64,000 bases of DNA, taken from assembly GCA_025963725.1 (NCBI GenBank), contig JAOQAE010000006.1:186001-250000 (forward strand), read 5' to 3'. Every line of letters starts with the position of its first letter. Positions within the stretch are counted from its first letter, which is position 1. The notes beneath the pieces are model-generated. The model made no database searches and had not been told where the DNA came from. It worked only from the letters and a program-made list of their open reading frames with translations. Both the position numbers and the translations under genes were made by a program. Below are positions 6,177 through 49,531 of this stretch, piece by piece. The stretch is from Bacteroidota bacterium. GTDB taxonomy: Bacteria > Bacteroidota > Bacteroidia > 2-12-FULL-35-15.

Positions 6177-6320
6177 ACACACCACTAACCCCTCTCGAGA
6201 GGGGAATTGATAGTGCCCGCATAAGAATTATAGTTCTTACCTGTAAGCTTAAATCTGAACTAAAAAGTTGAGTTGAGCAGAATTTATTCCCCTCTTGAGA
6301 GGGGCAAGGGGGTATGTTAA
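6177..6320. repeat. MITE-like palindromic element, copy A (subfamily I)
   Basis: Two arms, each with a 16-base palindrome (CCCCTCTCGAGAGGGG near 6190-6205; CCCCTCTTGAGAGGGG near 6289-6304), face each other as imperfect terminal inverted repeats. The outer flank is CACTAACCCC on the left and GGGGGTATGTT on the right. Inside the left arm is GATAGTGC, shared with copies B and E. It lies between the convergent ftsE and glycosyltransferase genes and has no coding capacity. Confidence 0.8.
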
Positions 6321-6349
6321 CAAGGGCTAAGAAAAATAATAAAATACGA

Positions 6350-7462
6350 TCAGATCAATTCCAGCAGCTTCTTCACATTCACAGTATTTGAAAAGCAAAC
6401 CGAAAGCGCCTCTTCGCGCTGCTGCTTCCCCTTCATATCAAAAGGAATATTAAAAAGCCGCTCAATCTCCTTTGCCATTTCATCCGCTTCATCGCGGATC
6501 ACGCAAAGTTCCTCGAGTCCGGTGTTGGCCACCATTGGCGTATTAACGACGCAATGCCTGCCGTTGAACAGCGCTGCCAGTAATTTCAATTTAATGCCTG
6601 TTGCCTGGAAGGTAGGCAGCACATTGATCTGCGCATTCCTGATCAGGTCGTCGATCTCCTGCGTGTTGATATTGGCGCGGATGCTGATATGACTGCATGT
6701 TGCCACCGCTTCAATAAGCTCACGCGAGGGCCGCTTTCCGGCAATCACAAAGGGTATCTTTATTTTGGAAAACACTTCCCTCACAAGGAACAGCGCCGCC
6801 TCATTGTTCTCGCCCACTTCGAGATTTCCATGATATAAGCAGAAATCTCCTTTTCCTTCCGCGATCTTCACCTGCTCATTCGGATGAAAGGCAGTGATGT
6901 GATGCACGTTCTTATAATGCTCTCCCAGCTTTTCAGCATCCGCTTTGGAGATGGCCGCAATATGATTGGCCTTGCCGAGCACTTTTTCGAAGCGCTCCAG
7001 CTTTTTGGCTTCCATCCCGAAATATACCTTCCTGAAAAAAGAGCGCTCCACCTTTTCGAGGTTCCTGTAATAATCGTGCTCGATGTTGTGTGTGCGGACC
7101 ACCCGGATGCGGTCATTAAGCCGGCTATCCTCCAGGTGAAAGCAGGAATGCAGGCCTTCAAATAAAATGGGATGCTTATCGCGGAGCAGGTTTTCGATCA
7201 GCTTCGCCGAGGTCCTTGTTACCACAACAAAGGGAAGCGTATTGAACAGCAGCTGCTTGCTCATGTTCCGTTTGTAATAATATACTTTTTCGCAAATGCT
7301 TTCGAGATTGCGGGCTTCTGCCCTGCCGTATTCAAAGCAATGCAGGTGGATCTTTATTCCCTGCGCCTGCAATGCTTTCATCTTATAATACACATCGATC
7401 ACGCCGCCGTAATTGGCAGGATATGGAACATCAAATGAAATGATATGTAAGTGCTTGTCCAA
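6350..7462 (-). CDS. Glycosyltransferase, GT4-like (GT-B fold)
   Basis: 370 aa. The N-terminal donor-independent domain starts FDVPYPANYGGVIDVYY, a typical glycine-rich opening of family 4 glycosyltransferases. The C-terminal half has CLYHGNLEVGENNEAA and a late NVLPTFQATGIKLKLLAAL segment, corresponding to the nucleotide-sugar-binding E-x7-E region of GT4 enzymes, here with Q/T replacing the first Glu. It is cytoplasmic or peripherally membrane-bound and probably transfers a hexose to a surface polysaccharide or lipid-linked glycan. The next glycosyltransferase gene lies 22 bases upstream in the same direction, so the two are likely one operon. Acceptor and sugar unknown. Confidence 0.82.
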   Translation of the reverse strand: MDKHLHIISFDVPYPANYGGVIDVYYKMKALQAQGIKIHLHCFEYGRAEARNLESICEKVYYYKRNMSKQLLFNTLPFVVVTRTSAKLIENLLRDKHPILFEGLHSCFHLEDSRLNDRIRVVRTHNIEHDYYRNLEKVERSFFRKVYFGMEAKKLERFEKVLGKANHIAAISKADAEKLGEHYKNVHHITAFHPNEQVKIAEGKGDFCLYHGNLEVGENNEAALFLVREVFSKIKIPFVIAGKRPSRELIEAVATCSHISIRANINTQEIDDLIRNAQINVLPTFQATGIKLKLLAALFNGRHCVVNTPMVANTGLEELCVIRDEADEMAKEIERLFNIPFDMKGKQQREEALSVCFSNTVNVKKLLELI

Positions 7463-7484
7463 TTTGTTCTAACAGGTTGTTTAT

Positions 7485-8609
7485 TTAATCCAGAAATTTT
7501 TCATACACCTCTTTCAGCTGTTTCTCTTCTTCTTCCCAGTTCAGCTTAGCGGCTGCAATTTTACAGTTTTTTTTCCATTCTTCCAGCAGGCGCTCATCAC
7601 CCAGAATGCGGTTAATCTTACCCGCGATATGCTGCGGATCGTGATTTTCAATAATATCGCCAAGCCTGTGCTCTTTAATAATTTTACTGATCTCTACAAG
7701 ATTTGATGCCAACACAGGCACGCCGGCATGGATGTAATCGAATAATTTATTCGGCAGGCTGTATTTGTAATTGATGTTCGTATCCTTATCGAGCGTAAGG
7801 CCGAGATCGGCATGGCGCGTATACTGCACCAGCTTCTCGAACGGCACTTTACCGGTGAATATTACTTTTTCACCGAGCTTTAATTTTTGAGTGATCTCTT
7901 TGAGCACGTCCATCACATCCCCGCTTCCAACGATCATCAGCACGGCATTCTCCACATACTGCATCGCCTGCACTGCCTCCTCCGCTCCTCTGTCGATATT
8001 GATCCCCGCACCCTGCAGCACAATTATTTTTTTATTGTCCGGCAGTCCGAGCTCTTTTTTTGAAACGGCTGCCACCCGCTCCTGCGCCGACAATAAAGGA
8101 ATATTTCTCAGCACTCTCACCTTCACATTATATTCTTCGCTGTAAATTTTAGCGATTGATCCATTCACGGTGAACACATCTTTCAGCTTCGGGAAGATCC
8201 AGCGCTCGATGCGCTTCCACATGTTTCTTTTCGCAGGATTGTTTTGAAGCTCCGGCACTTCGCAGAAAAGCTCATGGCTGTCGTACACCAGCTTTGCTCC
8301 CATCAGCTTTGAGATCAGAAAATTAGGCAGCAGCGTATCAAGGTCGTTGGCAACGAGTACGGCGCCATTGCGAAGGAAGAGGCAAAGCAGCAGGCGCAGC
8401 TGGTATTCAGCATAGAACAGCGGGCCTTTTTCAAACAGCAGGAACATCCGTTTTGTAGCATAGCTCCTGGGCGCCAATGGCAGGCTTTTGCGCTGCCTGC
8501 GCCCTACCAGCAACACATCGTATCCCATGCCCTGCAGGCTTGTACACACCTTGTGCACGCGCTGGTCGGTGCTGAGGTCGTTGATAACGGATACGATGGC
8601 TTTTTTCAT
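7485..8609 (-). CDS. Glycosyltransferase, GT4-like
   Basis: 374 aa from the ATG at 8607-8609. I prefer this start because MKKAIVSVINDLSTDQRVHK is the normal N-terminus for this family, whereas the upstream extension is not. Features: VANDLDTLLP and LVYDSHELF in the N-terminal domain, the nucleotide-binding start KKIIVLQGAGINIDRGAEEA, then GSGD and FTGKVPFEKL, and a C-terminal LPNKLFDYIHAGVPVLAS, a classic GT4 donor-binding loop. It likely adds a sugar in envelope glycan synthesis together with the following glycosyltransferase. It is divergent from murB. Confidence 0.87.
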   Translation of the reverse strand: MKKAIVSVINDLSTDQRVHKVCTSLQGMGYDVLLVGRRQRKSLPLAPRSYATKRMFLLFEKGPLFYAEYQLRLLLCLFLRNGAVLVANDLDTLLPNFLISKLMGAKLVYDSHELFCEVPELQNNPAKRNMWKRIERWIFPKLKDVFTVNGSIAKIYSEEYNVKVRVLRNIPLLSAQERVAAVSKKELGLPDNKKIIVLQGAGINIDRGAEEAVQAMQYVENAVLMIVGSGDVMDVLKEITQKLKLGEKVIFTGKVPFEKLVQYTRHADLGLTLDKDTNINYKYSLPNKLFDYIHAGVPVLASNLVEISKIIKEHRLGDIIENHDPQHIAGKINRILGDERLLEEWKKNCKIAAAKLNWEEEEKQLKEVYEKFLD

Positions 8610-8759
8610 GGATGAACAGGCCGCTAAGATAGAGATTTTAGGGGTAATGGCATCCGGTAACAACTGAGATATGAGCAGCGGGCTATGAATAACTTTTCAG
8701 CCATGTTATTGATACTTAACAGCAATTTTCTGAATTTTGAATATTATTTGCGGAACAGT

Positions 8760-9776
8760 ATGAACGTTACAGAGAACCAATCCTTAAAGCACTTAAACAC
8801 ATTCGGCATCGATGCATCTGCACGGTACTTTGCAGAATGCACATCACTGGAGGAGATCAAGGCGGTGCTTTCCGATAAAAAATATTCAGGCGCCACAAAG
8901 CTGATCCTTGGCGGCGGCAGCAATTTATTGTTCACGAAGGATTTCGATGGCCTTGTCATCAAGAATAATTTAAAAGGCATCGAGCTCATTAAGGAAGATG
9001 CCGATTTTTATTACGTGCGCTCGGCAGGCGGTGAAGTATGGCACGAGTTCGTGATGCACTGCATCGATCATAATTATGCCGGGCTCGAAAACCTGTCGCT
9101 GATCCCGGGGAACGTCGGCGCAAGCCCGATGCAGAACATCGGCGCGTACGGCGTGGAGATAAAGGATTCGTTTCACGAGCTGCAGGCTTTTCACATCAAC
9201 GATAAAGCGCTGCATATTTTTACCAACACCGATTGCAAGTTCGGTTACCGCGAAAGTGTTTTCAAGCGCGAGCTGAAGGACCAGTTCATTATCACTGCCG
9301 TTACATTTAAGCTGCACAAGCATCCTGTGCTGAACACGAGCTATGGCGCAATTGAAAAAGAGCTGGAAGCAATGGGCATTACAAACCCTACGATACAATC
9401 CGTAAGCAAAGCCGTGTGCAACATCCGCAGCAGCAAATTACCCGATCCGAAAAAGATCGGCAATGCAGGAAGCTTTTTTAAAAATCCCGAAGTTTTAAAA
9501 AGTAAATACGAAGCGCTGCAAAACGAGTTTCCCGCCGTGGTAGGTTATCCGCTTGAAAATGGAAATGTAAAATTAGCTGCCGGCTGGCTCATCGAGCAAT
9601 GCGGTTGGAAAGGAAAATCATCCGGGGATGCAGGCGTGCATAAACTGCAGGCGCTGGTGCTTGTGAATTACGGCAATGCGAAAGGCAATGAGATTTACGA
9701 CCTCTCCACAAAAATACTGGAATCTGTTAAAGAAAAGTTCGGCGTGGAGCTCGAACGCGAAGTGAATATTATTTAG
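8760..9776 (+). CDS. murB: UDP-N-acetylmuramate dehydrogenase MurB
   Basis: 338 aa from the ATG at 8760, the usual size for type I MurB; a longer in-frame start at 8685 adds 25 hydrophobic residues atypical of the family. The N-terminal FAD-binding domain has LGGGSNLLFT, then LIPGNVGASPMQNIGAYGVEI. The C-terminal domain has KIGNAGSFFKNP, containing the catalytic serine region, and AAGWLIEQCGWKG. MurB reduces UDP-GlcNAc-enolpyruvate to UDP-MurNAc with NADPH in the cytoplasm, the second committed step of peptidoglycan synthesis. Its stop directly abuts the stop of the convergent DinB-like gene. Confidence 0.95.
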   Translation: MNVTENQSLKHLNTFGIDASARYFAECTSLEEIKAVLSDKKYSGATKLILGGGSNLLFTKDFDGLVIKNNLKGIELIKEDADFYYVRSAGGEVWHEFVMHCIDHNYAGLENLSLIPGNVGASPMQNIGAYGVEIKDSFHELQAFHINDKALHIFTNTDCKFGYRESVFKRELKDQFIITAVTFKLHKHPVLNTSYGAIEKELEAMGITNPTIQSVSKAVCNIRSSKLPDPKKIGNAGSFFKNPEVLKSKYEALQNEFPAVVGYPLENGNVKLAAGWLIEQCGWKGKSSGDAGVHKLQALVLVNYGNAKGNEIYDLSTKILESVKEKFGVELEREVNII

Positions 9777-10292
9777 TTAATCCAGCAGGTATTTTGTTTT
9801 AAGCACAAACAAATGATGGATCGCATGGCCCGCGATCATATAAATGATCGCCCGTACCGACACCTCTACGCCATTTGCATTCCCGAACTGGCCCAGCTCT
9901 TCCTCCTCAAACGTTTTGAACATCGCCAGGTTAGCTTCGCGCACAATTGCAAATTCATGCCCCAGCTCATATAAAGTGCGCTTGTGAAAATTTGAATTCG
10001 CTACAAAAGCATTCTCATCAAATCCAGGCAATACGGTTTTATCCTTCCGTGCAAAGCGCATAGCGCGGTAACCCAGCACTCTTTCCGTATCGATGATGTG
10101 GCCAAGCACCTGCTTGATCGTCCATTTACCCTCGGCATAAGCATAATCCTCCTTGTCCTCCGGGATCTCGGAGATAACCGCCTGTATGTTCAGGATCTGG
10201 TCTTTCAGCTCCTTGATCACATCATTGCCTTTTACCTTGTCTACATAATTAGCATAGTAGCCGGGGTACTCGATGGGTTCTGGTCGTTTCAT
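9777..10292 (-). CDS. DinB/YfiT-like putative metal-dependent hydrolase
   Basis: 171 aa from the ATG at 10290-10292. The four-helix DinB fold is indicated by three putative metal-binding histidines: one in LGHIIDTER and two in AGHAIHHL near the C-terminus. The family includes thiol-S-transferases and hydrolases of mostly unknown substrate; DinB itself does not repair DNA enzymatically. Immediately upstream (10301-10333) is one of four TTCGTA leader repeats of this window. A TTG three codons earlier is possible, but the ATG is more plausible. Confidence 0.82.
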   Translation of the reverse strand: MKRPEPIEYPGYYANYVDKVKGNDVIKELKDQILNIQAVISEIPEDKEDYAYAEGKWTIKQVLGHIIDTERVLGYRAMRFARKDKTVLPGFDENAFVANSNFHKRTLYELGHEFAIVREANLAMFKTFEEEELGQFGNANGVEVSVRAIIYMIAGHAIHHLFVLKTKYLLD

Positions 10293-10300
10293 GAGGTACA

Positions 10301-10333
10301 ATAACGGATTTTTACGAATTTACGAATCTGTGT
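10301..10333 (-). repeat. TTCGTA leader repeat, copy 1 (upstream of DinB-like gene)
   Basis: Read on the minus strand this begins ACACAGATTCGTAAATTCG and continues to ATCCGTTAT, ending 8 bases before the ATG. The same sequence, in the same orientation relative to the gene, precedes holA, the EVE gene and the Nif3-like gene. Confidence 0.75.
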
Positions 10334-10348
10334 TTGTTCTGCGCGTTG

Positions 10349-10391
10349 TAAGAGATTCTTCACTACGCTGCGCTTCGTTCAGAATGACAAT
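10349..10391. repeat. Short interspersed repeat (GAGATTCTTC...AGAATGACA type)
   Basis: The segment contains GAGATTCTTC, then CTGCGCTTCG, then CAGAATGACA. The same layout, with variations, occurs at 47388-47433 and in shortened form at 59946-59977. It lies in an intergenic stretch made of repeat modules. Confidence 0.6.
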
Positions 10392-10401
10392 TCTTAAACA
10401 A

Positions 10402-10470
10402 TTTTTACTTAAGAATCACAATCATAAAGCTAACCGTCTCCGAACTACCACCTCCGAACTCCGAACTACA
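10402..10470. repeat. Intergenic repeat module sharing GACGGTTAGC with 20268-20325
   Basis: On the minus strand, GTTCGGAGACGGTTAGC followed by ATTCTTAA corresponds to GTTCGTAGACGGTTAGC and ATTCTTAA at about 20285-20320 on the plus strand. Upstream on the minus strand, short GTTCGGAG units run into the stop codon of the M3 peptidase gene, so the repeat begins at the very end of that gene. Confidence 0.6.
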
Positions 10471-12196
10471 AACTTATCTTCTCCAATTCCCCTTTTACAA
10501 AAGCAGCAAGCTCCTTCACATAGCTTTGTGAAAAGTTGAATTCAACTCCGGCAGCCTTGTAGATCTCCGGGATCGATTTGGTATAACCCAAGCGCAAAGC
10601 CGCTTCATATTGGTCAAGCGCCTTTTCAGGGTTCGATTTATAATTTCTCCATACGGCAATTGCACCAAGCTGCGCCATTCCGTATTCTATGTAATAAAAT
10701 GGCACTTCATAAATATGCAGCTGGCTCTGCCATCCGCGCTTCCTGATCTCCTCCATGCCTTTCCAGTCGACAACGCTGCTGCTGAACTCAGTGATGATCT
10801 TTTCCCAGGTATTCATTCTTTCGGCAATAGAATGCTCCGGGTGTTCATACAGCCAGTGCTGGAACTTATCCACAGCGCCTATCCAGAGCAATGACTTTAA
10901 CGTTTGCTCCAACTGCTCCTGCTTCGCCCTTCTCAGCTCATCCTTATCGGCATAGAATACATCCCAGTGCTCCATGGAAATAAGCTCCATCGACATGGAA
11001 GCAAGCTCTGCCACTTCTGAAGGCGTGCTTTTAAAATCGGTGATCTCGAGATCGCGTGTAACAAATGAATGGATCGCGTGTCCGCCTTCATGCACCATCG
11101 TGATCACATCGCGCTGCGCACCTACGGAATTCATAAAAATAAAGGGAACGCCGATCTCGTACAGCGGGTAATTGTATCCTCCGGGAGCTTTGCCTTTGCG
11201 TGATTCGAGGTCGAGATGGCCCATGGTTTTCATGATCTCGAGGTACTCGCCGAATGAATGACGGATCTTATAAAAGCATGCGATGCTTTTATCGATCAGC
11301 TCTGTGCCTGTTTTCACGGGCATCAGCGCGGGCTTGCCATCCACATCCACATCCATGTCCCAAGGCTTTAGCACATCCAGCTTCAGCTTTGCTTTCCGCC
11401 GTTGGTTGATGCTTTCGCTGATGGGCAGGATCTCGCTTGAAATGGATTTATGAAAATCGAAGCAATCCTGCACGGTATAATCGAAGCGCCCAAGCTCGGC
11501 GAATTTATAATCGCGGTAATTTTTAAACCCGGCATTTACACCTACCTGGTGGCGCAGCTGCAAAAGCTCTGAAAACAAATCGTTCAGGGCATCCACGTCT
11601 TTCGACTTGCGCTCCTGCATTTTAAAATAGATCTCTTCACGCACTTTCCTGTCGGCTTCCTTCAGCACGTTCGCAGCCTTCTGCAGCGTGATCTCCTCTC
11701 CTTTCCAGTTCACCGTCATAGCGGCTGCAATGGCGCCGTATTTTTGCGAATCGGTAGCGATCTTTGTATTGAGCGGAATATTTTCTTCCCTGTAGATCTC
11801 CAGCGCCTTCTTCACTCCGCGCAGGTAAACAGCATATTCGGGCTTGTTGAGCTTTGCAACATATTCATTGCTTACGAGCTTTTTGTTCAGCTCATTATTG
11901 TAAGGCGCAATGTGCGGCTCTATTTCAGAAACAAAATAATTGAATGCATCGGTGATCGCCTTGTCGGTAGTATCGCAGGTCATGCGGATATAGCGCCATG
12001 CCATTTCCTCGCTGATCACCGCTTCCAGCTCGCTCCTGTCCTTCAGCCATTTTTCGAGGCTTGCAACAGAATCGATCTTACGCTCCATAAGGTCTTTAAA
12101 AAATGGCTCGATCCTTTCCCAAGTATCGATCGTTAAATGCTGTGGTAAAAAATGGCGCACCGGTTTTTCCGGAACGGTAATCTGCTTTGTGTCCAT
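10466..12196 (-). CDS. M3 family oligoendopeptidase (PepF-like)
   Basis: 576 aa, a normal length for PepF-type oligoendopeptidases. The zinc-binding HEGGHAIHSF motif starts at H369 (E370 catalytic, H373), with the third ligand expected in EVAELASMSMEL about 25 residues on. There is no signal peptide, so it is cytoplasmic; it degrades peptides of roughly 5-20 residues, including products of other proteases and cleaved signal peptides. It follows the T9SS protein at 12208 by 11 bases, but functions need not be linked. Its stop codon is embedded in a repeat module. Confidence 0.92.
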   Translation of the reverse strand: MDTKQITVPEKPVRHFLPQHLTIDTWERIEPFFKDLMERKIDSVASLEKWLKDRSELEAVISEEMAWRYIRMTCDTTDKAITDAFNYFVSEIEPHIAPYNNELNKKLVSNEYVAKLNKPEYAVYLRGVKKALEIYREENIPLNTKIATDSQKYGAIAAAMTVNWKGEEITLQKAANVLKEADRKVREEIYFKMQERKSKDVDALNDLFSELLQLRHQVGVNAGFKNYRDYKFAELGRFDYTVQDCFDFHKSISSEILPISESINQRRKAKLKLDVLKPWDMDVDVDGKPALMPVKTGTELIDKSIACFYKIRHSFGEYLEIMKTMGHLDLESRKGKAPGGYNYPLYEIGVPFIFMNSVGAQRDVITMVHEGGHAIHSFVTRDLEITDFKSTPSEVAELASMSMELISMEHWDVFYADKDELRRAKQEQLEQTLKSLLWIGAVDKFQHWLYEHPEHSIAERMNTWEKIITEFSSSVVDWKGMEEIRKRGWQSQLHIYEVPFYYIEYGMAQLGAIAVWRNYKSNPEKALDQYEAALRLGYTKSIPEIYKAAGVEFNFSQSYVKELAAFVKGELEKISL

Positions 12197-17277: not shown

Positions 17278-17419
17278 CACACACCCCTAACCCCTCTCAA
17301 GAGGGGAATGGATAGTGCAAACATTGAAATCCAATATTTCAACGGAGCATCTCCCGGAAAAAATATCACCCGGAGGGACGGGATCAACTCCCCTCTTGAG
17401 AGGGGCCGGGGGTGTGTTA
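17278..17419. repeat. MITE-like palindromic element, copy B (subfamily I)
   Basis: The left arm has ACACACCCCTAACCCC and palindrome CCCCTCTCAAGAGGGG, then GGATAGTGCAAAC. The right arm has GGATCAACTCCCCTC, the palindrome again, and GGGGGTGTGTT. The two ends are inverted repeats of about 28 bases with few mismatches. It sits between the divergent HsdR-N-like and AMP nucleosidase genes. Confidence 0.85.
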
Positions 17420-17467
17420 TCCGGATATTGATTTTCGTAACATTGTAAAATTTCGTAATTAGCAAAT

Positions 17468-18310: not shown

Positions 18311-18393
18311 ACACAGATTCGTAAAATTCGTACAGATTCGTTATCCGTACAAAAATTCGTAATTCGTAAATTAGTACAGATTCGTAATTAGCA
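18311..18393 (+). repeat. TTCGTA leader repeat, copy 2 (upstream of holA, extended)
   Basis: Starts ACACAGATTCGTAAAATTCG, then ACAGATTCGTTATCCGTAC, followed by further ATTCGTA units to just before the holA ATG at 18401. The first about 45 bases match copy 3 (20451) almost base for base. Confidence 0.8.
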
Positions 18394-18400
18394 CATCAAC

Positions 18401-19600: not shown

Positions 19601-20263
19601 ATGAAAAAAGGGATCTATTGCCTGGAAGGATTGTGGGATTATAATTTAAGGGATAAATCCACCGTGCAGCCTATATTGGAATTGCTGGAGAAGAGCGACA
19701 TCTGCAATCACATGTATCATTCATGCGCTACAAAAGATGAGCTCGAATTTTTCCTGAAAAAGTGGAAGCAAAAAAAGATCAACACAAAATTTCCGATCCT
19801 CTACCTTGCCTTCCATGGCAGCAAAGGCAATATCCTCATCACACATAACAAACCTTATTCTCTTAAGGAGCTCGGCACTATGCTCGAAGGCTCCTGCGAT
19901 GGAAAAGTGATCTTCTTTGCCTCCTGCGAAACACTCAATACAGATGAGCGAAAGATCCAGTCGTTCCTGAAGCAAACCAATGCCATAGCCGCCGTTGGCT
20001 ACAAGCAGGAGGTTGAGTGGATGCTCGCCACCGCATTCGAGCTGCTGGTGCTCGATGCCTTCCAGCAGGACCGCTTCGATAGCCGGGGCATCCAGAATAT
20101 CGAGGAGAAAATAAAAACCGAATATGGTAAGCTGCACCAGCTGCTCTATTTCCGGATGGTGATCAACAAGCACGTGCATTTCCCGAGAAAACGGGTCGTA
20201 ACCAATGCAGGCGTGGTTACAAAGACACGCAAACAAACGGAGAAGAGATTGAAAAGTGGATAG
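19601..20263 (+). CDS. Solitary CHAT/caspase-like protein (DUF6642-like)
   Basis: 220 aa, no signal peptide. A beta strand ending in a His (LYLAFHGSKG, H72) and another ending in a Cys (VIFFASCETLN, C109) reproduce the His-Cys dyad of CHAT/clostripain-type cysteine peptidases, where the second motif is typically SACET. I believe it matches the uncharacterised Bacteroidota family DUF6642, but I cannot confirm the number. There is no TPR or other partner domain, and the C-terminus is basic (KKR/KTRKQTEKR). It is flanked by repeat-rich DNA on the 3' side. Protease activity is inferred from the dyad only. Confidence 0.72.
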   Translation: MKKGIYCLEGLWDYNLRDKSTVQPILELLEKSDICNHMYHSCATKDELEFFLKKWKQKKINTKFPILYLAFHGSKGNILITHNKPYSLKELGTMLEGSCDGKVIFFASCETLNTDERKIQSFLKQTNAIAAVGYKQEVEWMLATAFELLVLDAFQQDRFDSRGIQNIEEKIKTEYGKLHQLLYFRMVINKHVHFPRKRVVTNAGVVTKTRKQTEKRLKSG

Positions 20264-20267
20264 TTGA

Positions 20268-20325
20268 GAATTGGGAGTTGGGAGTTCGTAGACGGTTAGC
20301 AGAGTAATTGAATTCTTAAATCAAA
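20268..20325. repeat. Intergenic repeat module sharing GACGGTTAGC with 10402-10470
   Basis: Starts with TTGGGAGTTGGGAGTT units, then GTTCGTAGACGGTTAGC and ATTCTTAA. An inverted copy lies at about 10402-10470 in the window. Confidence 0.55.
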
Positions 20326-20344
20326 ACCTGGATTAATAATTCGT

Positions 20345-20386
20345 GCAGGATCAATTCCCCTCTCGAGAGGGGCTAGGGGTGTGTTA
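20345..20386 (+). repeat. Solo arm of the MITE-like element, copy C (subfamily I)
   Basis: GCAGGATCAATTCCCC, palindrome CCCCTCTCGAGAGGGG, then CTAGGGGTGTGTT correspond to the right arm only of copies A and B. No matching left arm is found in the 80 bases to its left, so this is a half element. Confidence 0.75.
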
Positions 20387-20401: not shown

Positions 20402-20432
20402 CACACGTTCTCGACTCCGCTCGAACTGACAA
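20402..20432 (+). repeat. 31-base repeat, copy 1
   Basis: CACACGTTCTCGACTCCGCT and the following 11 bases are a perfect reverse complement of 29597-29627. Both copies are intergenic. Confidence 0.9.
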
Positions 20433-20450
20433 GCACACATAGCCCGTCAA

Positions 20451-20517
20451 ACACAGATTCGTAAATTCGTATAGATCCGTTATCCGTACATTCGTATATT
20501 CGCAAAAAAATCCGTAA
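20451..20517 (+). repeat. TTCGTA leader repeat, copy 3 (upstream of EVE gene)
   Basis: ACACAGATTCGTAAATTCG, then ATAGATCCGTTATCCGTAC, then ATTCGTATATTCGC up to the base before the EVE gene start at 20520. Nearly identical to the start of copy 2. Confidence 0.8.
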
Positions 20518-28995: not shown

Positions 28996-29114
28996 TGACC
29001 ACCCCTAACCCCTCCTCGGAGGAGGGGAATGCAGTGTGCAAGCGAGAACATCTCTGTAGAACATAATGGTAAGCAGGATCAGCTCCCTCCTCTCAGGAGG
29101 GTTGGGGTGGTACT
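28996..29114. repeat. MITE-like palindromic element, copy D (subfamily II)
   Basis: Left arm GACCACCCCTAACCCC, palindrome CCCCTCCTCGGAGGAGGGG, then AGTGTGCAAGC. Right arm GCAGGATCAGCTCCC, hairpin CCTCCTCTCAGGAGG, then GGGGTGGTAC. Shares inner motifs with copies A, B and E but has the longer CCCCTCCT palindrome and GTACCACCCC-type ends. Lies between psd and the small Cys-rich gene. Confidence 0.8.
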
Positions 29115-29596: not shown

Positions 29597-29627
29597 TTGT
29601 CAGTTCGAGCGGAGTCGAGAACGTGTG
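29597..29627 (-). repeat. 31-base repeat, copy 2 (inverted relative to 20402)
   Basis: Perfect reverse complement of 20402-20432. Located between the convergent Cys-rich and YjjG-like genes. Confidence 0.9.
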
Positions 29628-37969: not shown

Positions 37970-38041
37970 TAGCCCGTAGGGGAATCGAACCCCTGTTTCC
38001 AGGATGAAAACCTGGCGTCCTAACCCCTAGACGAACGGGCC
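37970..38041 (-). tRNA. trnE: tRNA-Glu (anticodon TTC)
   Basis: 72 nt read on the minus strand: acceptor GGCCCGT pairs with ACGGGCT (first pair G-T), D arm GTCTAGGGGTTAGGAC, anticodon stem CCAGG/CCTGG with loop TTTTCAT giving TTC, T arm AGGGGTTCGATTCCCCT, discriminator A. No encoded CCA. The G-T end pair is a feature I associate with Bacteroidota tRNA-Glu. Confidence 0.97.
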
Positions 38042-40437: not shown

Positions 40438-41760
40438 ATGAAAACATATATTGGAATCTTAGCGTTGACAGCACTGTTTGCAACAGGATGCACCGCCCCG
40501 CAAGGCGCCACTTCCCGCGCTTACAGCGACGATGTTTATTACTCATCCGCAGATGCCGCAGCCGATCAGGCAAAGCTGAAGCGGGACCTCGAAAAGGAAA
40601 AACAGGACGCCATTGCCGCTAAAAGAGCGGAGCAGGACAAGGCCGCTCCCGCGGAAAGCCCTGCCACCACTGACGATTATTACCAAACAACCGAAAAACG
40701 TACGGATCAGGATGGAAATACGTATGTAACCAACAATTACTACGAAGACAAGCCATTCGATTACGACGATTATTACGATTACGAGTATTCTGCACGCTTA
40801 AGGCGCTTCCACAATAACGTAGGCTATTACGGCTATTACGATAATTACTACACGAATACGTACTATTACACATACGACCCGTTCTATTACGGTACCAGCG
40901 TGTACATGGGCTATAATTTCTGGGGCCCTTCCTATGCCGTGTACAGCTACAATCCGGGCTTTTTATGGTATTCCAGCTATGGATGGTGCAACGATCCATG
41001 GTACAATCCGTATGGCTATAACCCATATATGAATGGCTATGCGAACGGATACAATAACGGTTACATGGATGGATACAATAACGGTTATTACGGCCATGGC
41101 GGCTACCAGAACAACTATTTCAACAGCTACGACAACAACAGCTATTACTATGGCCCCCGCGGCACCATGACGGCTAACAGCCGCAGCAACGCGCAGCCAA
41201 GCATGGCGCACCGTTACATGGAAACCGTGGAAGCACAAACACATAAGCCATTCGAAGAAACCCATGGCCGCACCAACAACGAATACATGAAGCCTACCAC
41301 CGTGAGCGATTATATGTCGAAACCGGCAAGGGACAACAATACTTCCAAGCCAATGGAATCAAGGCCGGTGAACAGCAGGCCTACGAATGCCGACAACAAG
41401 CCGGTGTACAATGAAAGGCCTGCCAATAACACAAATGAAAGGCCTGCTAATAACACAACCGAGCAAAAGCCTGTGTACAATAACAAACCGGGAGAAAAGC
41501 CTGCACAAAAACCGGCTGAACGTCCTGTGTATAACGAACAGCAGAAGCCGCAGGAGCGCCCTGTATATGAGCAGAAACCTGCAGAAAAACCTGTGTACCA
41601 GGAAAAGCCTGCAGAAAGGCCAAGAGAAAAGCCGCAATACCAGCAGCAGGCACCGGCTCAAACCCCGGCTCCGCGCAATAATACTTCCACCGATGGAAGC
41701 AGCACCAAAGGCAGCAGCACTCCTGCTCCCACTCCAAGTCCTGCACCGAGAAGAAGATAA
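40438..41760 (+). CDS. Tyr/Asn-rich lipoprotein with KPVY/ERPVY repeats
   Basis: 440 aa. Signal peptide with lipobox LFATGC, lipidated Cys at C18. A short charged helix (about 45-65) precedes a very tyrosine- and asparagine-rich segment (about 75-245: YDDYYDYEYS, YYGYYDNYYTNTYYYTYDP, NGYANGYNNGYMDGYNNGYY). The last about 150 residues are Pro/Lys/Glu-rich with recurring PVYNE, EKPVYQEKPAERP motifs. No known domain; it is mostly disordered. It probably sits on the outer membrane and is coupled to the porin-like gene 20 bases downstream. The tyrosine and KPVY content recalls adhesive proteins; that is analogy only. Confidence 0.75.
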   Translation: MKTYIGILALTALFATGCTAPQGATSRAYSDDVYYSSADAAADQAKLKRDLEKEKQDAIAAKRAEQDKAAPAESPATTDDYYQTTEKRTDQDGNTYVTNNYYEDKPFDYDDYYDYEYSARLRRFHNNVGYYGYYDNYYTNTYYYTYDPFYYGTSVYMGYNFWGPSYAVYSYNPGFLWYSSYGWCNDPWYNPYGYNPYMNGYANGYNNGYMDGYNNGYYGHGGYQNNYFNSYDNNSYYYGPRGTMTANSRSNAQPSMAHRYMETVEAQTHKPFEETHGRTNNEYMKPTTVSDYMSKPARDNNTSKPMESRPVNSRPTNADNKPVYNERPANNTNERPANNTTEQKPVYNNKPGEKPAQKPAERPVYNEQQKPQERPVYEQKPAEKPVYQEKPAERPREKPQYQQQAPAQTPAPRNNTSTDGSSTKGSSTPAPTPSPAPRRR

Positions 41761-44840: not shown

Positions 44841-44848
44841 TAACTTTG
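44841..44848 (+). promoter_or_regulatory. Candidate -7 box for the lipocalin-like gene
   Basis: TAACTTTG is an exact TAnnTTTG match, 31 bases before the ATG at 44879. A strong ribosome-binding site (AAAGGAG, 44868-44874) follows. Confidence 0.45.
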
Positions 44849-44878
44849 TAGTAAGTAACCCATTCAGAAAGGAGAATT

Positions 44879-45310
44879 ATGAAAACTAATGCAAGATCAA
44901 TCATCGCCATTTCAGCACTTGCTATTGCTTACCTGGCTTGGAAAAAACCGGCCGCAGAAGTGGAGCTCCGTGCAGTGAAATCATTAGTCACAAAAGGGAA
45001 ATGGAAGGTGAATCTGTACCGTGATAACGGTGTGGACGAAACCAACAACTATACAGGTTATGAGTTTCAATTCAAACCCAATGGAACTGTTATAGCATCA
45101 AAAGATGAGTCTTTGCTGAGCGGAACCTGGAAAAGTGCCGTGGATGGCCGCAAACCTAAACTATATATGGAATTTGCATCGTCATCCCATCTGGATGAAT
45201 TGTCGGAAGACTGGCAGATCACAGGTCATGAATCTGATTCCCTCGAACTGGAGGATACAACCCCGGGAAAGGGAGGAGTTGATTACCTGAACCTGCAGAA
45301 AATTTCGTAA
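44879..45310 (+). CDS. Exported lipocalin-like small protein
   Basis: 143 aa with a strong GGAG site 5 bases before ATG. N-terminal membrane segment or uncleaved signal (SIIAISALAIAYLAW). The rest is beta-rich: GKWKVNLYRDNG, YTGYEFQFKPNGTVIASK, SGTWKSAVDGRKPKLYMEF, WQITGHESDSLEL. The layout of KW-x-V, FxPNGTV and SGTW strands resembles small lipocalin-like domains of Bacteroidota (lipocalin_5/DUF4923-like), but I cannot name the family. Probably a small periplasmic or membrane-tethered ligand-binding domain. A terminator follows directly. Confidence 0.7.
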   Translation: MKTNARSIIAISALAIAYLAWKKPAAEVELRAVKSLVTKGKWKVNLYRDNGVDETNNYTGYEFQFKPNGTVIASKDESLLSGTWKSAVDGRKPKLYMEFASSSHLDELSEDWQITGHESDSLELEDTTPGKGGVDYLNLQKIS

Positions 45311-45326
45311 CAATAATCTATAAACA

Positions 45327-45363
45327 CAAAAAAGGAGTCCCGGATCCCGGAACTCCTTTTTTT
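45327..45363. terminator. Bidirectional terminator between convergent genes
   Basis: AAAAAGGAGT pairs with ACTCCTTTTT around an inner CCGG/CCGG stem, with A and T runs on the two sides. It serves both the lipocalin-like gene (plus) and the zinc-ribbon gene (minus). Confidence 0.9.
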
Positions 45364-45377
45364 CTTTTTATAAGCTT

Positions 45378-46139
45378 TTATTCTTTTACTTTCCCGGTTA
45401 AAATATCGGCATCCACCAAAATCCTTCCGCAATGCTCGCATACGATCACTTTCTTGTGAGTGCGGATATCAAGCTGGCGCTGTGGCGGGATCTTGTTAAA
45501 GCATCCTCCGCAGGCATCACGCTCTACGGTAACAACACCTAAGCCGTTCATCACGTTTCCGCGGATCCTTTTATAAGCATTCAGGAGGCGATCTTCGATC
45601 ATCGACTCTGAAGTTTTTGATTTTTTCAATAATGATTCCTCTTCCTTCTCCGTTTCAGCAACGATCTCATCGAGCTCTTTCTGCTTCAGCTTCAGGTCTT
45701 TCTGACGGTCTTTCAATTCTGCTTCAGAAGTTTCAATGATCTCTTTTTTTGTGATCATGTTCGCTTTGAATTCCTTGATGCGCTTCTCAGCCAGCTGGAT
45801 CTCCAGGTTCTGGAACTCGATCTCTTTGGTGATAGCATCGTATTCGCGGTTATTGCGAACTTTTCCCTGCTGTGCTTCGTATTTTTTGATCAATGCCGCA
45901 GCATCTTTCATTACATTCTTTTTGTCTGCAATCCCGTCTTCCATCGCTTTCAGCTCCTCGGTAAGATTGTTCACGCGGGTTTCAAGGCCTGCAACAATAT
46001 CTTCCAGGTCCCTTACTTCCAAAGGCAATTCACCTCTTACAGTCCTGATCTTATCGATCTTTGAATCGATCTGCTGTAATTCAAACAGTGTTCTCAATTT
46101 TTCCTCTACAGAAATATCTTCAGTTTTAGCTTTTGCCAT
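45378..46139 (-). CDS. Zinc-ribbon coiled-coil protein (CdsZ/zf-RING_7-like)
   Basis: 253 aa. Residues about 10-190 are a long coiled coil with heptads of Leu/Glu/Lys. The C-terminus carries a C4 zinc ribbon: CGGCFNKI and CEHCGRILVD, about 20 residues apart. This architecture is widespread and likely cytoplasmic; the chlamydial relative CdsZ interacts with secretion components and other relatives bind nucleic acids, but the role here is not known. It lies 3 bases after the Nif3-like gene on the same strand, so the two are an operon. Confidence 0.87.
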   Translation of the reverse strand: MAKAKTEDISVEEKLRTLFELQQIDSKIDKIRTVRGELPLEVRDLEDIVAGLETRVNNLTEELKAMEDGIADKKNVMKDAAALIKKYEAQQGKVRNNREYDAITKEIEFQNLEIQLAEKRIKEFKANMITKKEIIETSEAELKDRQKDLKLKQKELDEIVAETEKEEESLLKKSKTSESMIEDRLLNAYKRIRGNVMNGLGVVTVERDACGGCFNKIPPQRQLDIRTHKKVIVCEHCGRILVDADILTGKVKE

Positions 46140-46142
46140 TTT

Positions 46143-47234
46143 TTATAGATAATTTATTGGATTTGTATTGATTTTTGACAAATGGAGTGCAAATGTACTA
46201 AATTTTTTCTTTAAAATCTCATAAAATAATTCGCTGGTGTACTGCTCGCTTTCATAGTGCCCGATATCAGCTATAACAATTTGGTTTTCAGCATCAAAGA
46301 ACTGGTGATACTTAAAATCTGCCGTCACAAAAACATCCGCTCCGGCCCTGATCGCTGCCGGAAGCAAAAAGCTGCCGGAACCGCCGCAAACAGCTACTTT
46401 TTTCACCTTTTTACCCCTTAATGCGGTAAACCGCACGCTTTCCGCCTTCATTGCCGATTTCAGGCGCTTCAGGAACTCCATTTCATCCGCCTCCTCTATC
46501 TCACCGATGAGGCCGCCCCCAACTTCCTTATGCACATTGTGAAGCGGGATAAGGTCATACGCCACTTCTTCATAAGGATGCGCCTTGATGAGAGCTGATA
46601 ACACCTTCGATTCGAGATGCGCAGGAAGGATGGTTTCGATCTTGGTTTCCTTTTCCTCGTGGCGCTCGCCCGGCTTGCCCACGTATGGATCCGCATCCTC
46701 GCCTGCACGGAATGTACCTGTGCCCATGCTGTTAAAGCTGCATTCATCATAGTTGCCGATCTGCCCGGCGCCGGCTTTGAACATGGCATTCCGCACTTCA
46801 TCCGCCTTATCCTGCGGGCAGAACGTGATCAGCCTTTTGAGCTTATCCTTCTGCGGCACCAGGATGCGGCAATCCTTCATGCCCAGCTTTTCCGCGATCT
46901 TCGCATTTACCCCGTCGATCACATTATCGAGATTGGTATGTGCCGCATAAATGGCGATGTTGTTCCGGATGGCTTTGATGATGACACGCTCCACGTAATT
47001 CTTGCCGTTGAACTTCTTGAGGCCGGAAAACACGATCGGATGGTGCGCGATCACCAGGTTGCAGCCCATGGCAATGGCTTCATCAAGCACAGCTTCCGTG
47101 CTGTCGAGGCAGATAAGCGCCGCCGTTACTTCCAGATCATGGCTTCCGCAGATGAGCCCTGCATTGTCGTAGCTTTCCTGGTATGCCAGCGGGGCAATGG
47201 ATTCGAGATGGTCGGTGATTTCTTTTAGCTTCAT
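46143..47234 (-). CDS. Nif3-like dinuclear metal-centre protein (three-domain type)
   Basis: 363 aa from the ATG at 47232-47234, with MKLKEITDHLESIAPLAYQES matching the family start; a frame extending to 47282 would include the leader repeat. Metal-ligand motifs: VIAHHPIVFSG (two His), AAHTNLDNV (His, Asp), and late ADIGHYESEQYT (His, Glu). The middle part (about 130-240) forms a PII/CutA-like insert, as in YqfO. Proposed as hexameric GTP cyclohydrolase-like hydrolases; the true function is uncertain. It is followed by the zinc-ribbon gene with a 3-base gap. Confidence 0.93.
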   Translation of the reverse strand: MKLKEITDHLESIAPLAYQESYDNAGLICGSHDLEVTAALICLDSTEAVLDEAIAMGCNLVIAHHPIVFSGLKKFNGKNYVERVIIKAIRNNIAIYAAHTNLDNVIDGVNAKIAEKLGMKDCRILVPQKDKLKRLITFCPQDKADEVRNAMFKAGAGQIGNYDECSFNSMGTGTFRAGEDADPYVGKPGERHEEKETKIETILPAHLESKVLSALIKAHPYEEVAYDLIPLHNVHKEVGGGLIGEIEEADEMEFLKRLKSAMKAESVRFTALRGKKVKKVAVCGGSGSFLLPAAIRAGADVFVTADFKYHQFFDAENQIVIADIGHYESEQYTSELFYEILKKKFSTFALHLSKINTNPINYL

Positions 47235-47275
47235 AATACGGATAACGAATTGGGGATACGAATTTACGAATCTGG
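47235..47275 (-). repeat. TTCGTA leader repeat, copy 4 (upstream of Nif3-like gene)
   Basis: On the minus strand CAGATTCGTAAATTCGTA, then ATTCGTTATCCGTATT, ends directly at the ATG of the Nif3-like gene. Same core and order as the copies at 10301, 18311 and 20451. Confidence 0.75.
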
Positions 47276-47387
47276 GTGACATAACGCTGCATTATTCCTG
47301 AGTGTTTTGTCGTACTGAGGAACCAGGCGGTGCGCGTGGCATGGTGAGGTACGAAGCATCCCGGGCACACAAGAATGGTTCTCTCCG

Positions 47388-47433
47388 CTGGAGATCCTTC
47401 GCTTCACTGCGTTTCACTCAGGATGACAAACTG
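47388..47433. repeat. Short interspersed repeat (second copy)
   Basis: GAGATCCTTCGCTTCACTGC followed by CAGGATGACA, resembling 10349-10391. Just upstream, 47308-47370 holds further repeat-like DNA with GTACTGAGGAACCAG and GGTACGAAGCATCC. Confidence 0.55.
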
Positions 47434-47480
47434 CACAAGTCAACCCGCGATCAATCAATATAATTCGTATTTTTAAAACC

Positions 47481-48578
47481 GTGAAGTTTTTACGCATTAT
47501 AGCATTTCCTTTATCGGTCATTTACGGGCTCATCGTTGCCATCCGCAACAAGATGTACGACCTCGGCATTCTCCGTTCGCGCGAGTTTGAGATCCCGGTA
47601 ATCTCCGTGGGCAACCTCTGCGTGGGAGGAACGGGAAAAACACCGCACATCGAATACCTCATCCGCCTGCTGAAAGGCGAATTTTACATAGCCACGCTCA
47701 GCCGCGGCTATGGACGCAAAACAAGCGGCTTCCTGCTTGCCGACACACAATCAACCGCCTCCGACATCGGCGATGAGCCTTTGCAGTTCAAGCGCAAATA
47801 CAGCAATGTACGCGTTGCAGTAGATGCAAACCGCATTAACGGAATTGCGGAGCTGCAGAAAAATTATCCTTCGCTGCAAAGCATCCTCCTGGATGATGCG
47901 TTCCAGCACCGCGCGGTAAGGCCGGGATTATCCATTGTGCTGACGGATTACAGCAAGCTGTATGTGAACGACTTTGTGATGCCTACCGGGAGCCTGCGCG
48001 AATTCAAAAGCGGGATCATCCGCGCCGATATTATCATTGTTACCAAATGTCCGCTGATCCTGCTGCCGATCGAGCGCAAGCGCCTGCTCAACGAAATAAG
48101 GCCGATGCCCCACCAGCATGTTTATTTCTCCTTCATTAAATACGGTGATTTTATTCCGCTCAATGGCGGAGAACAAAAAAACCCCTTCACAAAGGAATTC
48201 TATTTCGAGCGCAACTATTCCATCCTGCTGCTTACCGGCATCGCCAACACTTCCCCGCTCGAATATTACCTGAAGGATAAGGTAAAGAACCTGCAGCGGG
48301 CGAAATACCCCGACCATCACCGCTTTACGCAAAACGACCTGGGGAATATTAAAAAAATATTTAATAATATTGCAGCCCCGAACAAGATCATATTGACCAC
48401 TGAAAAAGATGCGATGCGCCTGAAAGGCCCTGAATATGCAGAGGCTATAAAAGACCTTCCTGTTTTTTACATACCGATCGAAATTGATTTTCACGATAAG
48501 GACAAAGAACAATTCAACGAACAGATCACACATTATGTTAGAGCAAATCAAAAGTACGGCAGCGTATATTCAAAGTAA
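47481..48578 (+). CDS. lpxK: Tetraacyldisaccharide 4'-kinase
   Basis: 365 aa, starting with GTG (47481) and MKFLRIIAFPLSVIYGL as a typical N-terminal membrane anchor. P-loop GNLCVGGTGKTP (44-55, Lys 53), then LSRGYGRKTSG, DEPLQFKRKY, and DDAFQHRAV. It phosphorylates the 4' position of the lipid A precursor at the inner membrane, the penultimate step for the core lipid A. It supports an LPS-bearing outer membrane; lpxH is also in the window. Its last 44 bases overlap the PNP gene in another frame. Confidence 0.95.
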   Translation: MKFLRIIAFPLSVIYGLIVAIRNKMYDLGILRSREFEIPVISVGNLCVGGTGKTPHIEYLIRLLKGEFYIATLSRGYGRKTSGFLLADTQSTASDIGDEPLQFKRKYSNVRVAVDANRINGIAELQKNYPSLQSILLDDAFQHRAVRPGLSIVLTDYSKLYVNDFVMPTGSLREFKSGIIRADIIIVTKCPLILLPIERKRLLNEIRPMPHQHVYFSFIKYGDFIPLNGGEQKNPFTKEFYFERNYSILLLTGIANTSPLEYYLKDKVKNLQRAKYPDHHRFTQNDLGNIKKIFNNIAAPNKIILTTEKDAMRLKGPEYAEAIKDLPVFYIPIEIDFHDKDKEQFNEQITHYVRANQKYGSVYSK

Positions 48579-49347
48579 AACGAACTTTCAGCCGGAAGTG
48601 GGAATTATATTGGGAACGGGCCTTGGCGGACTGGTGCAGGAGATCGACATCAAACATACGATCGCTTATGAAGAGATCCCGGGCTTCCCTGTTTCAACAG
48701 TGGAAGGCCATTCGGGCAAGCTGATCTTCGGCGAGCTCGGCGGAAAAAATGTAGTGGCCATGCAGGGGCGCTTTCATTATTACGAAGGCTACAACATGCA
48801 GCAGGTAACTTATCCTGTGCGCGTCATGAAATTTCTCGGCATCCAGAAGCTCTTTGTTTCCAATGCTTCCGGCGGCGTGAATGACACATTCGAGATCGGC
48901 GACCTGATGATCATCAGCGACCATATCAACTTTTTTCCATCCAACCCGCTGATCGGGAAAAACATGGCGGAGCTTGGCCCGCGCTTCCCCGACATGAGTG
49001 AAGCCTATAGCAAAGAGATCATCGCAAAAGCAAAAAAAGTGGCCGCAGCGAACAACATAAAAGTGCAGCAGGGAGTTTACCTCGGCTTATCGGGCCCCAC
49101 CTTTGAAACGCCCGCAGAATACCGCATGGTGAAGATCCTCGGCGCAGATGCCGTTGGCATGAGCACCGTTCCGGAAGTGATCGTTGCCAGGCACATGGGC
49201 ATTCCCTGCTTCGCGATCTCGATCATTACCGACCTTGGCGTGGAAGGGAAGATCGTGGAAGTAACGCATGAGGAAGTGCAGCAGGTTGCGGCGCTTGCGG
49301 AAAAGAAAATGACGCTTATTATGAAAGAGCTGATGAAGGAGCTGTAG
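48535..49347 (+). CDS. Purine nucleoside phosphorylase (PNP-I, trimeric type)
   Basis: 270 aa from the ATG at 48535 (MLEQIKSTAAYIQ, the family start). Motifs: VGIILGTGLGGLV (phosphate/ribose site), PGFPVSTVEGHSG, MQGRFHYYEGY, FVSNASGGVN and the AVGMSTVPEVIVARHMGI segment. It cleaves inosine and guanosine with phosphate to free purine and ribose 1-phosphate. The start lies 44 bases inside lpxK in the +1 frame, so the two are translationally linked. Together with AMP nucleosidase and Upp it gives the window several salvage enzymes. Confidence 0.94.
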   Translation: MLEQIKSTAAYIQSKTNFQPEVGIILGTGLGGLVQEIDIKHTIAYEEIPGFPVSTVEGHSGKLIFGELGGKNVVAMQGRFHYYEGYNMQQVTYPVRVMKFLGIQKLFVSNASGGVNDTFEIGDLMIISDHINFFPSNPLIGKNMAELGPRFPDMSEAYSKEIIAKAKKVAAANNIKVQQGVYLGLSGPTFETPAEYRMVKILGADAVGMSTVPEVIVARHMGIPCFAISIITDLGVEGKIVEVTHEEVQQVAALAEKKMTLIMKELMKEL

Positions 49348-49366
49348 TATTTAATCAGAGAGATTT

Positions 49367-49531
49367 GCTTGTACCACCCCTATCCCCTCCTGAGAGGAGG
49401 GGGACGGATAGTGCAAACATATAGCAGTAGTAAAAGAATAATAATTGGATTTAACGGATGATTGGACGGAATTGTATGCCGACATTCGCAGGATCAGCTC
49501 CCTCTCTGAGGAGGGCTGGGGTGGTACAAGC
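49367..49531. repeat. MITE-like palindromic element, copy E (subfamily II, best-defined ends)
   Basis: 165 bp bounded by perfect 14-base inverted repeats GCTTGTACCACCCC (49367-49380) and its reverse complement (49518-49531). The left arm holds CCCCTCCTGAGAGGAGGGG and GATAGTGCAAAC, the right arm GCAGGATCAGCTCCC and a CCTCTCTGAGGAGG hairpin. It lies between the PNP gene and the M1 peptidase gene. Confidence 0.88.

Follow-up and report, generated by a model that had tools for sequence, protein, structure and literature searches.

We analysed a stretch of DNA, hereafter the window, that comprises 64,000 nucleotides of a Bacteroidota bacterium of the lineage 2-12-FULL-35-15 (assembly GCA_025963725.1, contig JAOQAE010000006.1, positions 186,001 to 250,000 of the forward strand) and carries a family of palindrome-bearing repeats between its genes. 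An earlier note, made from the sequence alone, had described these repeats as elements resembling miniature inverted-repeat transposable elements (MITEs). All five repeat loci were found at the positions given there, and they hold nine arms in total: two A-A pairs (6177 and 17278), one unpaired A arm (20345), and two BL-BR pairs (28996 and 49367). With up to 3 mismatches, the 15-base core CACCCCTAACCCCTC has 6 matches in the window compared with 0.61 expected, and 0 of 100 shuffles reached 6. The nine arms are listed here, each with its score against the third-strand code defined below (6/7 to 8/8).

6177..6216, + strand: A-type arm, left in a facing pair; code 6/7
6277..6320, - strand: A-type arm, right in the pair; 4-base linker, code 6/7
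17278..17318, + strand: A-type arm; linker TAA, code 7/7; left junction between TATTTTCGC and ACACACCCC
17378..17419, - strand: A-type arm; linker CGG (the other linker type), code 7/7
20345..20386, - strand: unpaired A-type arm; code 7/7; inward of it an AT-rich stretch, then a TAACCGTCTACGAACT tail
28996..29039, + strand: BL arm; linker TAA, code 8/8
29073..29114, - strand: BR arm; linker CAA, code 7/7
49367..49414, + strand: BL arm; linker TAT, code 8/8; 14-base perfect outer end
49492..49531, - strand: BR arm; linker CAG, imperfect hairpin, code 7/7

On the C-rich strand, from 5' to 3', the A arm reads ACACACCCC-TAA-CCCCTCT-CN-AGAGGGG-AATNGATCCTGC, the BL arm ACCACCCC-TAA-CCCCTCCT-NNN-AGGAGGGG-AATGCATNNTGC, and the BR arm TACCACCC-CAA-CCCTCCT-NNN-AGGAGGG-AGCTGATCCTGC. 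On the G-rich strand, each arm includes (i) a pyrimidine stem; (ii) a loop of 2–3 bases; (iii) a purine stem; (iv) a linker, usually of 3 bases, of the TTA or the YNG type; and (v) a third segment of 7–9 bases. The third segment mirrors the stem according to the reverse-Hoogsteen code (G*G.C, T*A.T, and A*A.T); in other words, the outer end mirrors the stem, each C facing a C and each T facing an A or a T, and the G-rich strand can be read as an antiparallel purine-motif triplex, GAGAGGGG-TTA-GGGGTGTG. The stem (1.84–2.00 bits per base) and the third strand (1.71–1.87) are the best conserved parts of the arm; the linker (1.12–1.36) and the loop (0.77–1.41) are less conserved, and the outer flank carries 0.12–0.22 bits. 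On inspection, one foot of the arm bears CACCCC and the 3-base linker and the other a tail near GATCCTGC. The inner motifs GATAGTGC and GCAGGATC that the earlier note had recorded are shared, as variants of this single tail that are conserved less than the stem. The perfect 14-base ends at 49367 (GCTTGTACCACCCC and GGGGTGGTACAAGC) are real, as are the two subfamilies, which are present genome-wide. Subfamily differences in palindrome and in outer end had been listed as two separate traits; because the outer ends mirror the stem, both are real and represent one co-change. On sequence alone, integron attC sites and G-quadruplexes were rejected as explanations.

By their predicted fold, the window repeats are a large, expanded, and multi-family Bacteroidota branch of the BoxC/PIT/TM class of intrastrand triplex motifs. 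This class is defined by a hairpin plus a third strand that follows the purine-motif (class II) code, with a stem of 6–15 and loops of 1–6 (PMC4666352, Holder et al. 2015, which cites Hoyne and Maher 2000, 2002 for the motif). According to the same paper, the class has been described in E. coli and cyanobacteria; BoxC (synonyms PIT and TM) has 23 copies in E. coli MG1655 and occurs in more than 260 genomes; the E. coli second loop is TTA or CCG, and five inverted pairs each join both types; and the motif forms a stable triplex in vitro and shows raised locus variability. Table 1 of that paper lists CCCTCTCCCTGTGGGAGAGGGCCGGGGTGAGGGC. When a 37-base C-type arm was compared with 5426 E. coli genomes, 4344 had a match at E 10 or better, and at least 80% of the arm was covered in 3993.

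The genome that holds the window comprises 4.79 Mb in 7 contigs. A genome-wide search, as proposed in the earlier note, found many further copies with consistent ends, with 79 matches to one strict arm pattern and none to its reversed control. The window and 80 fetched stretches together contain at least 184 arms (A 68, BL 57, BR 54, C 5), a lower bound because only stretches around matches were fetched and arms with insertions or deletions are missed (for example, 49492–49531). These arms form 55 facing pairs (25 BL-BR, 13 BR-BL, 15 A-A, and 2 BL-C), and 74 arms have no facing partner. Pair lengths are mostly 104–155 bases, with A pairs of 137–155 and 213–255 and with 36 of the 40 pairs that include a B arm at 104–145. 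All 38 facing B-B pairs join BL with BR, none being BL-BL or BR-BR; the linkers of the two classes are of the T and the C type, an echo of the two-type rule for inverted pairs in E. coli. B arms are also arrayed, successive pairs being separated by short linkers that recur, such as GTACAGCACTAACC. Among 198 genomes (this one and relatives) searched with the arm pattern, 29 matched, compared with none for the control: 79 copies in this genome, 69 in one congener, 1–17 in fourteen congeners, and a few in each of thirteen more distant genomes. No arm-pattern match was found in 20 of the 36 genomes of the genus.

The locus at 20345 had been regarded as a half copy. It is indeed an arm, and a broken copy is not required: 38 of the 68 A arms have no facing partner, and the congeners G003 and G016 each have one A arm, identically oriented, in the corresponding gap. 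The TAACCGTCTACGAACT tail of this arm is common to other unpaired A arms; a TAACCGTCT tail filter was passed by 16 of the 38, two of which (L036 and L094) look like chance. Relative to the local GC skew, the strand of the unpaired A arms was opposite in 23 and the same in 15. Some 65 bases inward from unpaired A arms lies a TTAACCGTCTCCGAACTACAAACT-like tail (window 20263–20340; L034, L053, L055, L068, L080, L082, L085, and L103), and at about 10430–10440 the window has such a tail with no arm, where G028 has arm and tail. Three right A arms (L057, L076, and L091) hold a second, GTTCATCCTGAGCGAAGCCGAAGGA-like hairpin inside the loop, which, recurring at three separate loci, may be explained either by nesting of one repeat in another or by the spread of a composite arm. 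At L103 (G000:C7:1321020-1327835), about 2 kb hold five A arms that all point the same way, interspersed with GCTCCGGAGGAGC-type hairpins.

Covariation between stem and third strand was measured on palindromes found hairpin first, blind to the outer end. In 294 of 326 palindromes, one side obeyed the code at every position, and 312 had at most one mismatch; when the outer ends were exchanged between the 326 palindromes, a mean of 133 and a maximum of 157 obeyed (300 trials). In a variant that counts both readings of each palindrome, 303 of 652 obeyed, and 133 of 415 unique ones did so, compared with a mean of 63 and a maximum of 77 after exchange. Counting each distinct stem once (18 stems, less 3 whose ends lack a C-run), 10 of 15 obeyed fully, compared with a permuted mean of 2.0, and 0 of 5000 permutations reached 10; with the ends cut to 11 bases, 7 of 15 obeyed, a number reached by 1 of 2000 permutations.

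The same co-change was found across phyla. When GTDB species genomes were scanned with one arm pattern, at least 110 stretches were returned, of which 80 were taken as loci. By record title, these belong, among the matches listed, to Bacteroidota, Cyanobacteria, Planctomycetota, Nitrospirota, Calditrichota, and one Lysobacterales metagenome-assembled genome (MAG); the cyanobacterial genera, among the matches listed, are Nostoc, Anabaena, Okeania, Symploca, Moorena, Oscillatoria, and Crocosphaera. The sources include several isolates and many MAGs, and at several cyanobacterial loci the arms lie within short tandem repeats. At these loci, ACACACCCC accompanies the stem CCCCTCT and ACCCACCCC accompanies the stem CCCCTCC. 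Apart from the scan match itself, 51 of 64 palindromes obeyed the code, compared with a mean of 22.9 and a maximum of 31 for exchanged ends and a mean of 0.05 for random genomic ends. The Planctomycetaceae MAG Nm470_bin17 (L163, L166, L170, L201, L213–L217, and others) has many ACCACCCC-type arms with CGCCTCCGAAGGAGG-like neighbours on many contigs.

With one stem base and its mirror base left unspecified, the arm pattern matched 9 of 395 genomes of the phylum Bacteroidota. The 19 copies outside this genome were A-T in 16 cases and C-C in 3, with no mixed copy, and the 22 copies on 12 viral contigs were A-T in 16 and C-C in 6, again with no mixed copy. In the cross-phylum scan, 97 copies comprised 74 C-C, 20 A-T, 2 C-T, and 1 T-C; by hand-typed lineage label, the numbers were C-C 24, A-T 14, C-T 1, and T-C 1. 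A- and CCC-type triplex arms are also present in IMG/VR viral contigs (L271–L284), with up to five per stretch.

A MITE of a DDE transposon, in which the terminal inverted repeats happen to contain palindromes, would account for the inverted ends, the narrow length classes, and the many copies. Target-site duplications, the mark that the earlier note had suggested looking for, were absent from 36 isolated pairs, in which the longest flanking direct repeat averaged 2.42 compared with 2.59 for mismatched flanks. Identity over the outer 28+28 bases was 89% (A-A, 45 comparisons) and 86% (B, 60 comparisons) in the shorter pairs, which comprise 10 of 15 A-A and 34 of 38 B pairs, whereas their interiors were 38% and 47% identical, compared with 32–33% for shuffled interiors; the interior is thus near random for A. 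Partner arms that did not match the genome pattern still had a mean score of 0.90 (27 arms), and the contrast between arms and interiors is therefore not merely a search artefact. Over half of the A arms stand without a facing partner. Among the open reading frame (ORF) families beside the copies, which carry no annotation, the largest touches 7 of 81 stretches and none is shared more widely; no parent transposase was found near the copies, and no whole-genome search aimed at DDE transposases was made. We consider a strict MITE highly implausible. What stands of the mobile-element description is a dispersed intergenic family with many copies, consistent ends, fold-back potential, and presence or absence between relatives.

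The arm clusters lie outside ORFs of at least 120 amino acids in 94 of 96 cases, though 88.8% of the bases are in called ORFs. The arm-bearing gaps comprise 32 convergent, 53 tandem, and 9 divergent gaps, compared with 30, 129, and 54 among 213 arm-free gaps, a few of which may count twice because some fetched stretches overlap at their edges. Convergent gaps are thus enriched and divergent gaps depleted (Fisher p 1e-4 and 1.2e-3). Such a location could mean that the arms are structural sites selected at gene ends, serving as a barrier or supercoil sink between convergent genes or as protection of mRNA 3' ends, with little current mobility. That the arms are much more alike than the interiors (0.86–0.89 versus 0.38–0.47), even where the partner arm departs from the genome pattern, speaks for selected sites, as does the A arm that G003 and G016 have in the gap and orientation of 20345. 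By contrast, most window copies are absent from most congeners at the collinear loci read, and this absence, together with the 20 genomes of the genus that have no match, indicates that neither site nor copy number is strongly kept. Moreover, the E. coli motif has no promoter or terminator activity according to PMC4666352. We regard selected structural sites as possible but not probable.

Turnover was read from the congeners G009, G028, and G032, which are collinear with much of the window, and from several others that are collinear with part of it; the comparison covered arm-bearing gaps only. Presence or absence differed at all five window loci. (i) At 6177, G028 keeps the right A arm without the left hairpin, and G009 has a B-like arm. 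(ii) At 17278, the orthologous gap has no arm in G009, G032, G028, G033, G003, G016, G035, and G006; where the flank aligns, the left junction falls exactly before ACACACCCC, and G028 holds another repeat there. (iii) The 20345 arm is absent from G009, G028, G032, G033, G035, and G006. (iv) The 28996 pair is absent from G009, G028, G032, and G003, and G010 carries there another hairpin of the triplex type that shares the GATCCTGC tail. (v) The 49367 pair is absent from G009, the sole congener read there. Reciprocally, a gap of about 20 bases in this genome corresponds to two arms in G009, and an A-like arm of G028 has no counterpart here.

The earlier note had also proposed fold-back RNA, that is, transcript hairpins, attenuators, or terminators. 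Folded with DNA energy parameters, three paired elements fold back strongly (z -5.2, -8.2, and -4.7; the 49367 pair is not among them), and the arms are biased to gene 3' ends. For the unpaired arm at 20345, folding is hardly better than for shuffled sequences (z -1.0), and no Rfam family reached its gathering score at the copies, the sole match in the window being a tRNA. In an RNA hairpin, the conserved third strand would have no role, and purine-motif triplexes are reported to be unable to form in RNA (PMC4666352, Introduction, citing Semerad and Maher), which points to a role of the third strand at the DNA level. The fold-back potential is upheld, whereas a function of the RNA itself is very unlikely and weaker than a DNA-level reading by the purine-motif third-strand code.

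The arms occur as intergenic hairpins that are single, paired, or in alternating arrays with recurring short linkers, the same layout as that of repetitive extragenic palindromes (REPs), bacterial interspersed mosaic elements (BIMEs), and REPINs. The arms could therefore be elements of this kind mobilised by a Y1 HUH transposase of the REP-associated tyrosine transposase (RAYT) type that has been lost, lies outside the assembly, or acts in trans. REP-Y1 pairing is common in the genus, and several Y1 loci have their own repeated hairpin. In this genome, one PF01797 (Y1_Tnp) gene was detected, L031 (G000:C6:384022-384366), and it adjoins an array of GCTCCTACGGAGC hairpins, a different family with 98 genome copies compared with 3 for the control. 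By eye, the L031 protein (DHTH ... YILNQAEHH) resembles subclass 1.2 of PMC6006769, which a table of that paper lists without REP structures; gene and array form an apparent REP-Y1 pair for this subclass. At further Y1 loci (L118–L120, L124–L126, L130–L132, L137, and L139), a hairpin family of its own lies near the gene, and these loci make a good set for REP-transposase co-evolution.

Triplex-like arms do lie near some Y1 genes: C-like arms at about 0.2 kb in L123 and about 1.3 kb in L115, a CCCCCTT-type arm at about 1 kb in L126, a degenerate B-like arm at about 1.3 kb in L125, and, in L230 (Cytophagales), a degenerate A-like arm at 6800–6880, about 0.4 kb from a Y1 gene at 7242–7841. A RAYT-like gene with matching ends, which the earlier note had proposed to seek, was not found for intact A or B arms: none of these arms occurs at 29 further Y1 loci (L112–L140) or at the Y1 locus of this genome, 30 of the 103 Y1 matches having been read. 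No ORF beside the copies in this genome matched Y1, and, by eye, no Y1 gene lay within 10 kb of arm copies among the matches listed. Three Y1 matches were found in the 80 cross-phylum loci: a partial one 5 kb from the arm (L176) and two at 2.6 and 3.4 kb from the scanned arm, which by eye lie between other palindromes (L196 and L230). Across the 36 congeners, copy number and Y1 number are not correlated (Spearman -0.17, p 0.33), and the 7 genomes without a Y1 match at E 0.001 have 10, 1, 0, 0, 0, 9, and 6 arm copies. No GTAG/GGAG or CGTC tag was seen at the hairpin foot on inspecting the arms. On this evidence, mobilisation by a Y1 transposase is unlikely.

The reading that we favour is that the repeats are probably BoxC-type triplex arms in a REP/BIME-like arrangement, kept for their DNA fold and spread by a process that acts on folded DNA. 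The architecture, the stem/third-strand covariation, the arrangement, the intergenic 3'-end-biased location, the lack of target duplication, and the turnover are computed. That three strands change together across several phyla suggests that the folded DNA shape itself is kept. Where single-stranded DNA is exposed, on the lagging-strand template or by supercoil-driven extrusion, an arm may fold into a triplex hairpin, the third strand folding back antiparallel on the purine strand, and a facing pair may form a larger cruciform. Gain and loss of copies would result from a process that acts on the folded DNA and leaves the target unduplicated; template switching at a stalled fork and a single-strand nuclease or transposase acting in trans are candidates. 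The arms would be kept or homogenised since the fold is recognised or useful, whereas the DNA between them would drift. In a bolder and doubtful form of this proposal, the signal is the intramolecular DNA triple helix as such, and a putative triplex-reading enzyme copies, keeps, or homogenises the arms in at least six phyla by record titles. If this were true, stem and third strand would have to change together, and the Bacteroidota pairs would be a REPIN-like kind of mobile unit in which a triplex takes the place of the tagged hairpin.

Several observations weigh against the favoured reading. In 32 of the 326 palindromes, the code was not fully obeyed, and 14 of these had more than one mismatch. 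In two sets of 4 that were fetched regardless of hairpins, 3 of 4 obeyed in each, and exchanged ends also reached 3. The three mixed copies that break the code at the tested base are all from Pontibacter, and the A-like arm of G028 has a B-type end with one code mismatch. The covariation counts are not independent, owing to common ancestry within arm families and to horizontally shared families, an effect that the per-stem permutation lessens without removing it; moreover, the C-run of the outer end was part of the patterns by which most loci were picked. The joining of a T- with a C-type linker, which is seen in both BL-C pairs and between the BL and BR classes, themselves set by consensus sequences that include the linker, occurs in 4 of 15 A-A pairs, with one more ambiguous. 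The congener comparison shows turnover in which insertion and deletion are not told apart, no genome pair has both flanks unchanged around an element, and the 20345 arm shared by G003 and G016 is as compatible with an old site as with repeated gain. No footprint of the E. coli motif was found in vivo (PMC4666352).

As far as the literature drawn on here goes, bacterial triplex motifs are an established finding, and proof is lacking that their importance to the cell lies in the triplex and not in the hairpin or the sequence. The co-change of stem and third strand in several families supplies comparative evidence on this question, together with natural variants that have matched and mismatched third strands and can be used in tests. 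With 79 copies in one genome, 69 in another, 1–17 in fourteen, and none in twenty, the genus is well suited to studying the origin and loss of such repeats.

Other features of the window were also recorded. A perfect 31-base inverted repeat, CACACGTTCTCGACTCCGCTCGAACTGACAA, occurs at 20402–20432, directly adjoining the unpaired arm at 20345, and at 29597–29627, and is perhaps another dispersed palindromic family. A short TTCGTAATTCGTAAATTCGTA-like tandem sequence recurs between genes (10301–10336, 17434–17467, 18324–18396, 20448–20490, and 47256–47277) and adjoins arms elsewhere in the genome too. The tRNA gene lies on the minus strand at 37970–38041, and a 24-base tandem repeat of two copies lies within an ORF at 41410–41457.

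Among known systems, MITEs are likewise short and non-coding and have inverted ends; the repeats described here differ in that they have no target duplication, no parent transposon was found, and the interior is not conserved. The SDR4-6 repeats of Nostoc, described by Elhai and colleagues in 2008, are reportedly 21–27-base hairpin repeats with compensatory changes and nesting, near heptameric repeats; they are not known to have been read as triplexes, and their likeness to the arms is one of description. REP, BIME, and REPIN elements likewise consist of intergenic hairpin units that occur singly, as inverted pairs, or in arrays, and they share the bias to convergent and tandem gaps, which has been reported for REPs (PMC3733652). 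Compared with the RAYT-associated elements of PMC6006769, the arms show no GTAG or CGTC tag, no Y1 gene was found flanked by intact A or B arms, and the stem is pyrimidine-only and has a third strand.

The BoxC/PIT/TM motifs are alike in the pyrimidine stem, the short loop, the purine stem, the 3-base second loop of the TTA or CCG type, and the purine-motif third strand; they too are intergenic. Their inverted pairs combine both loop types, as the facing B pairs do here and most A-A pairs do not, and their loci vary between related genomes, those of the window differing in presence or absence among the congeners read. PMC4666352 makes no mention of Bacteroidetes, and a term search of it gave nothing on covariation or compensation, whereas stem and third strand change together between the families seen here; our literature search found no earlier description of this co-change, and the papers listed by a search for the exact repeat letters were unrelated by title. 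The present set further differs from BoxC/PIT/TM in its scale, with at least 184 arms compared with the 23 copies of MG1655; in the several stem families (A, BL, BR, and C) that stand side by side; in the B arms that often form facing pairs or alternating arrays with recurring linkers; and in the common inner tail near GATCCTGC.

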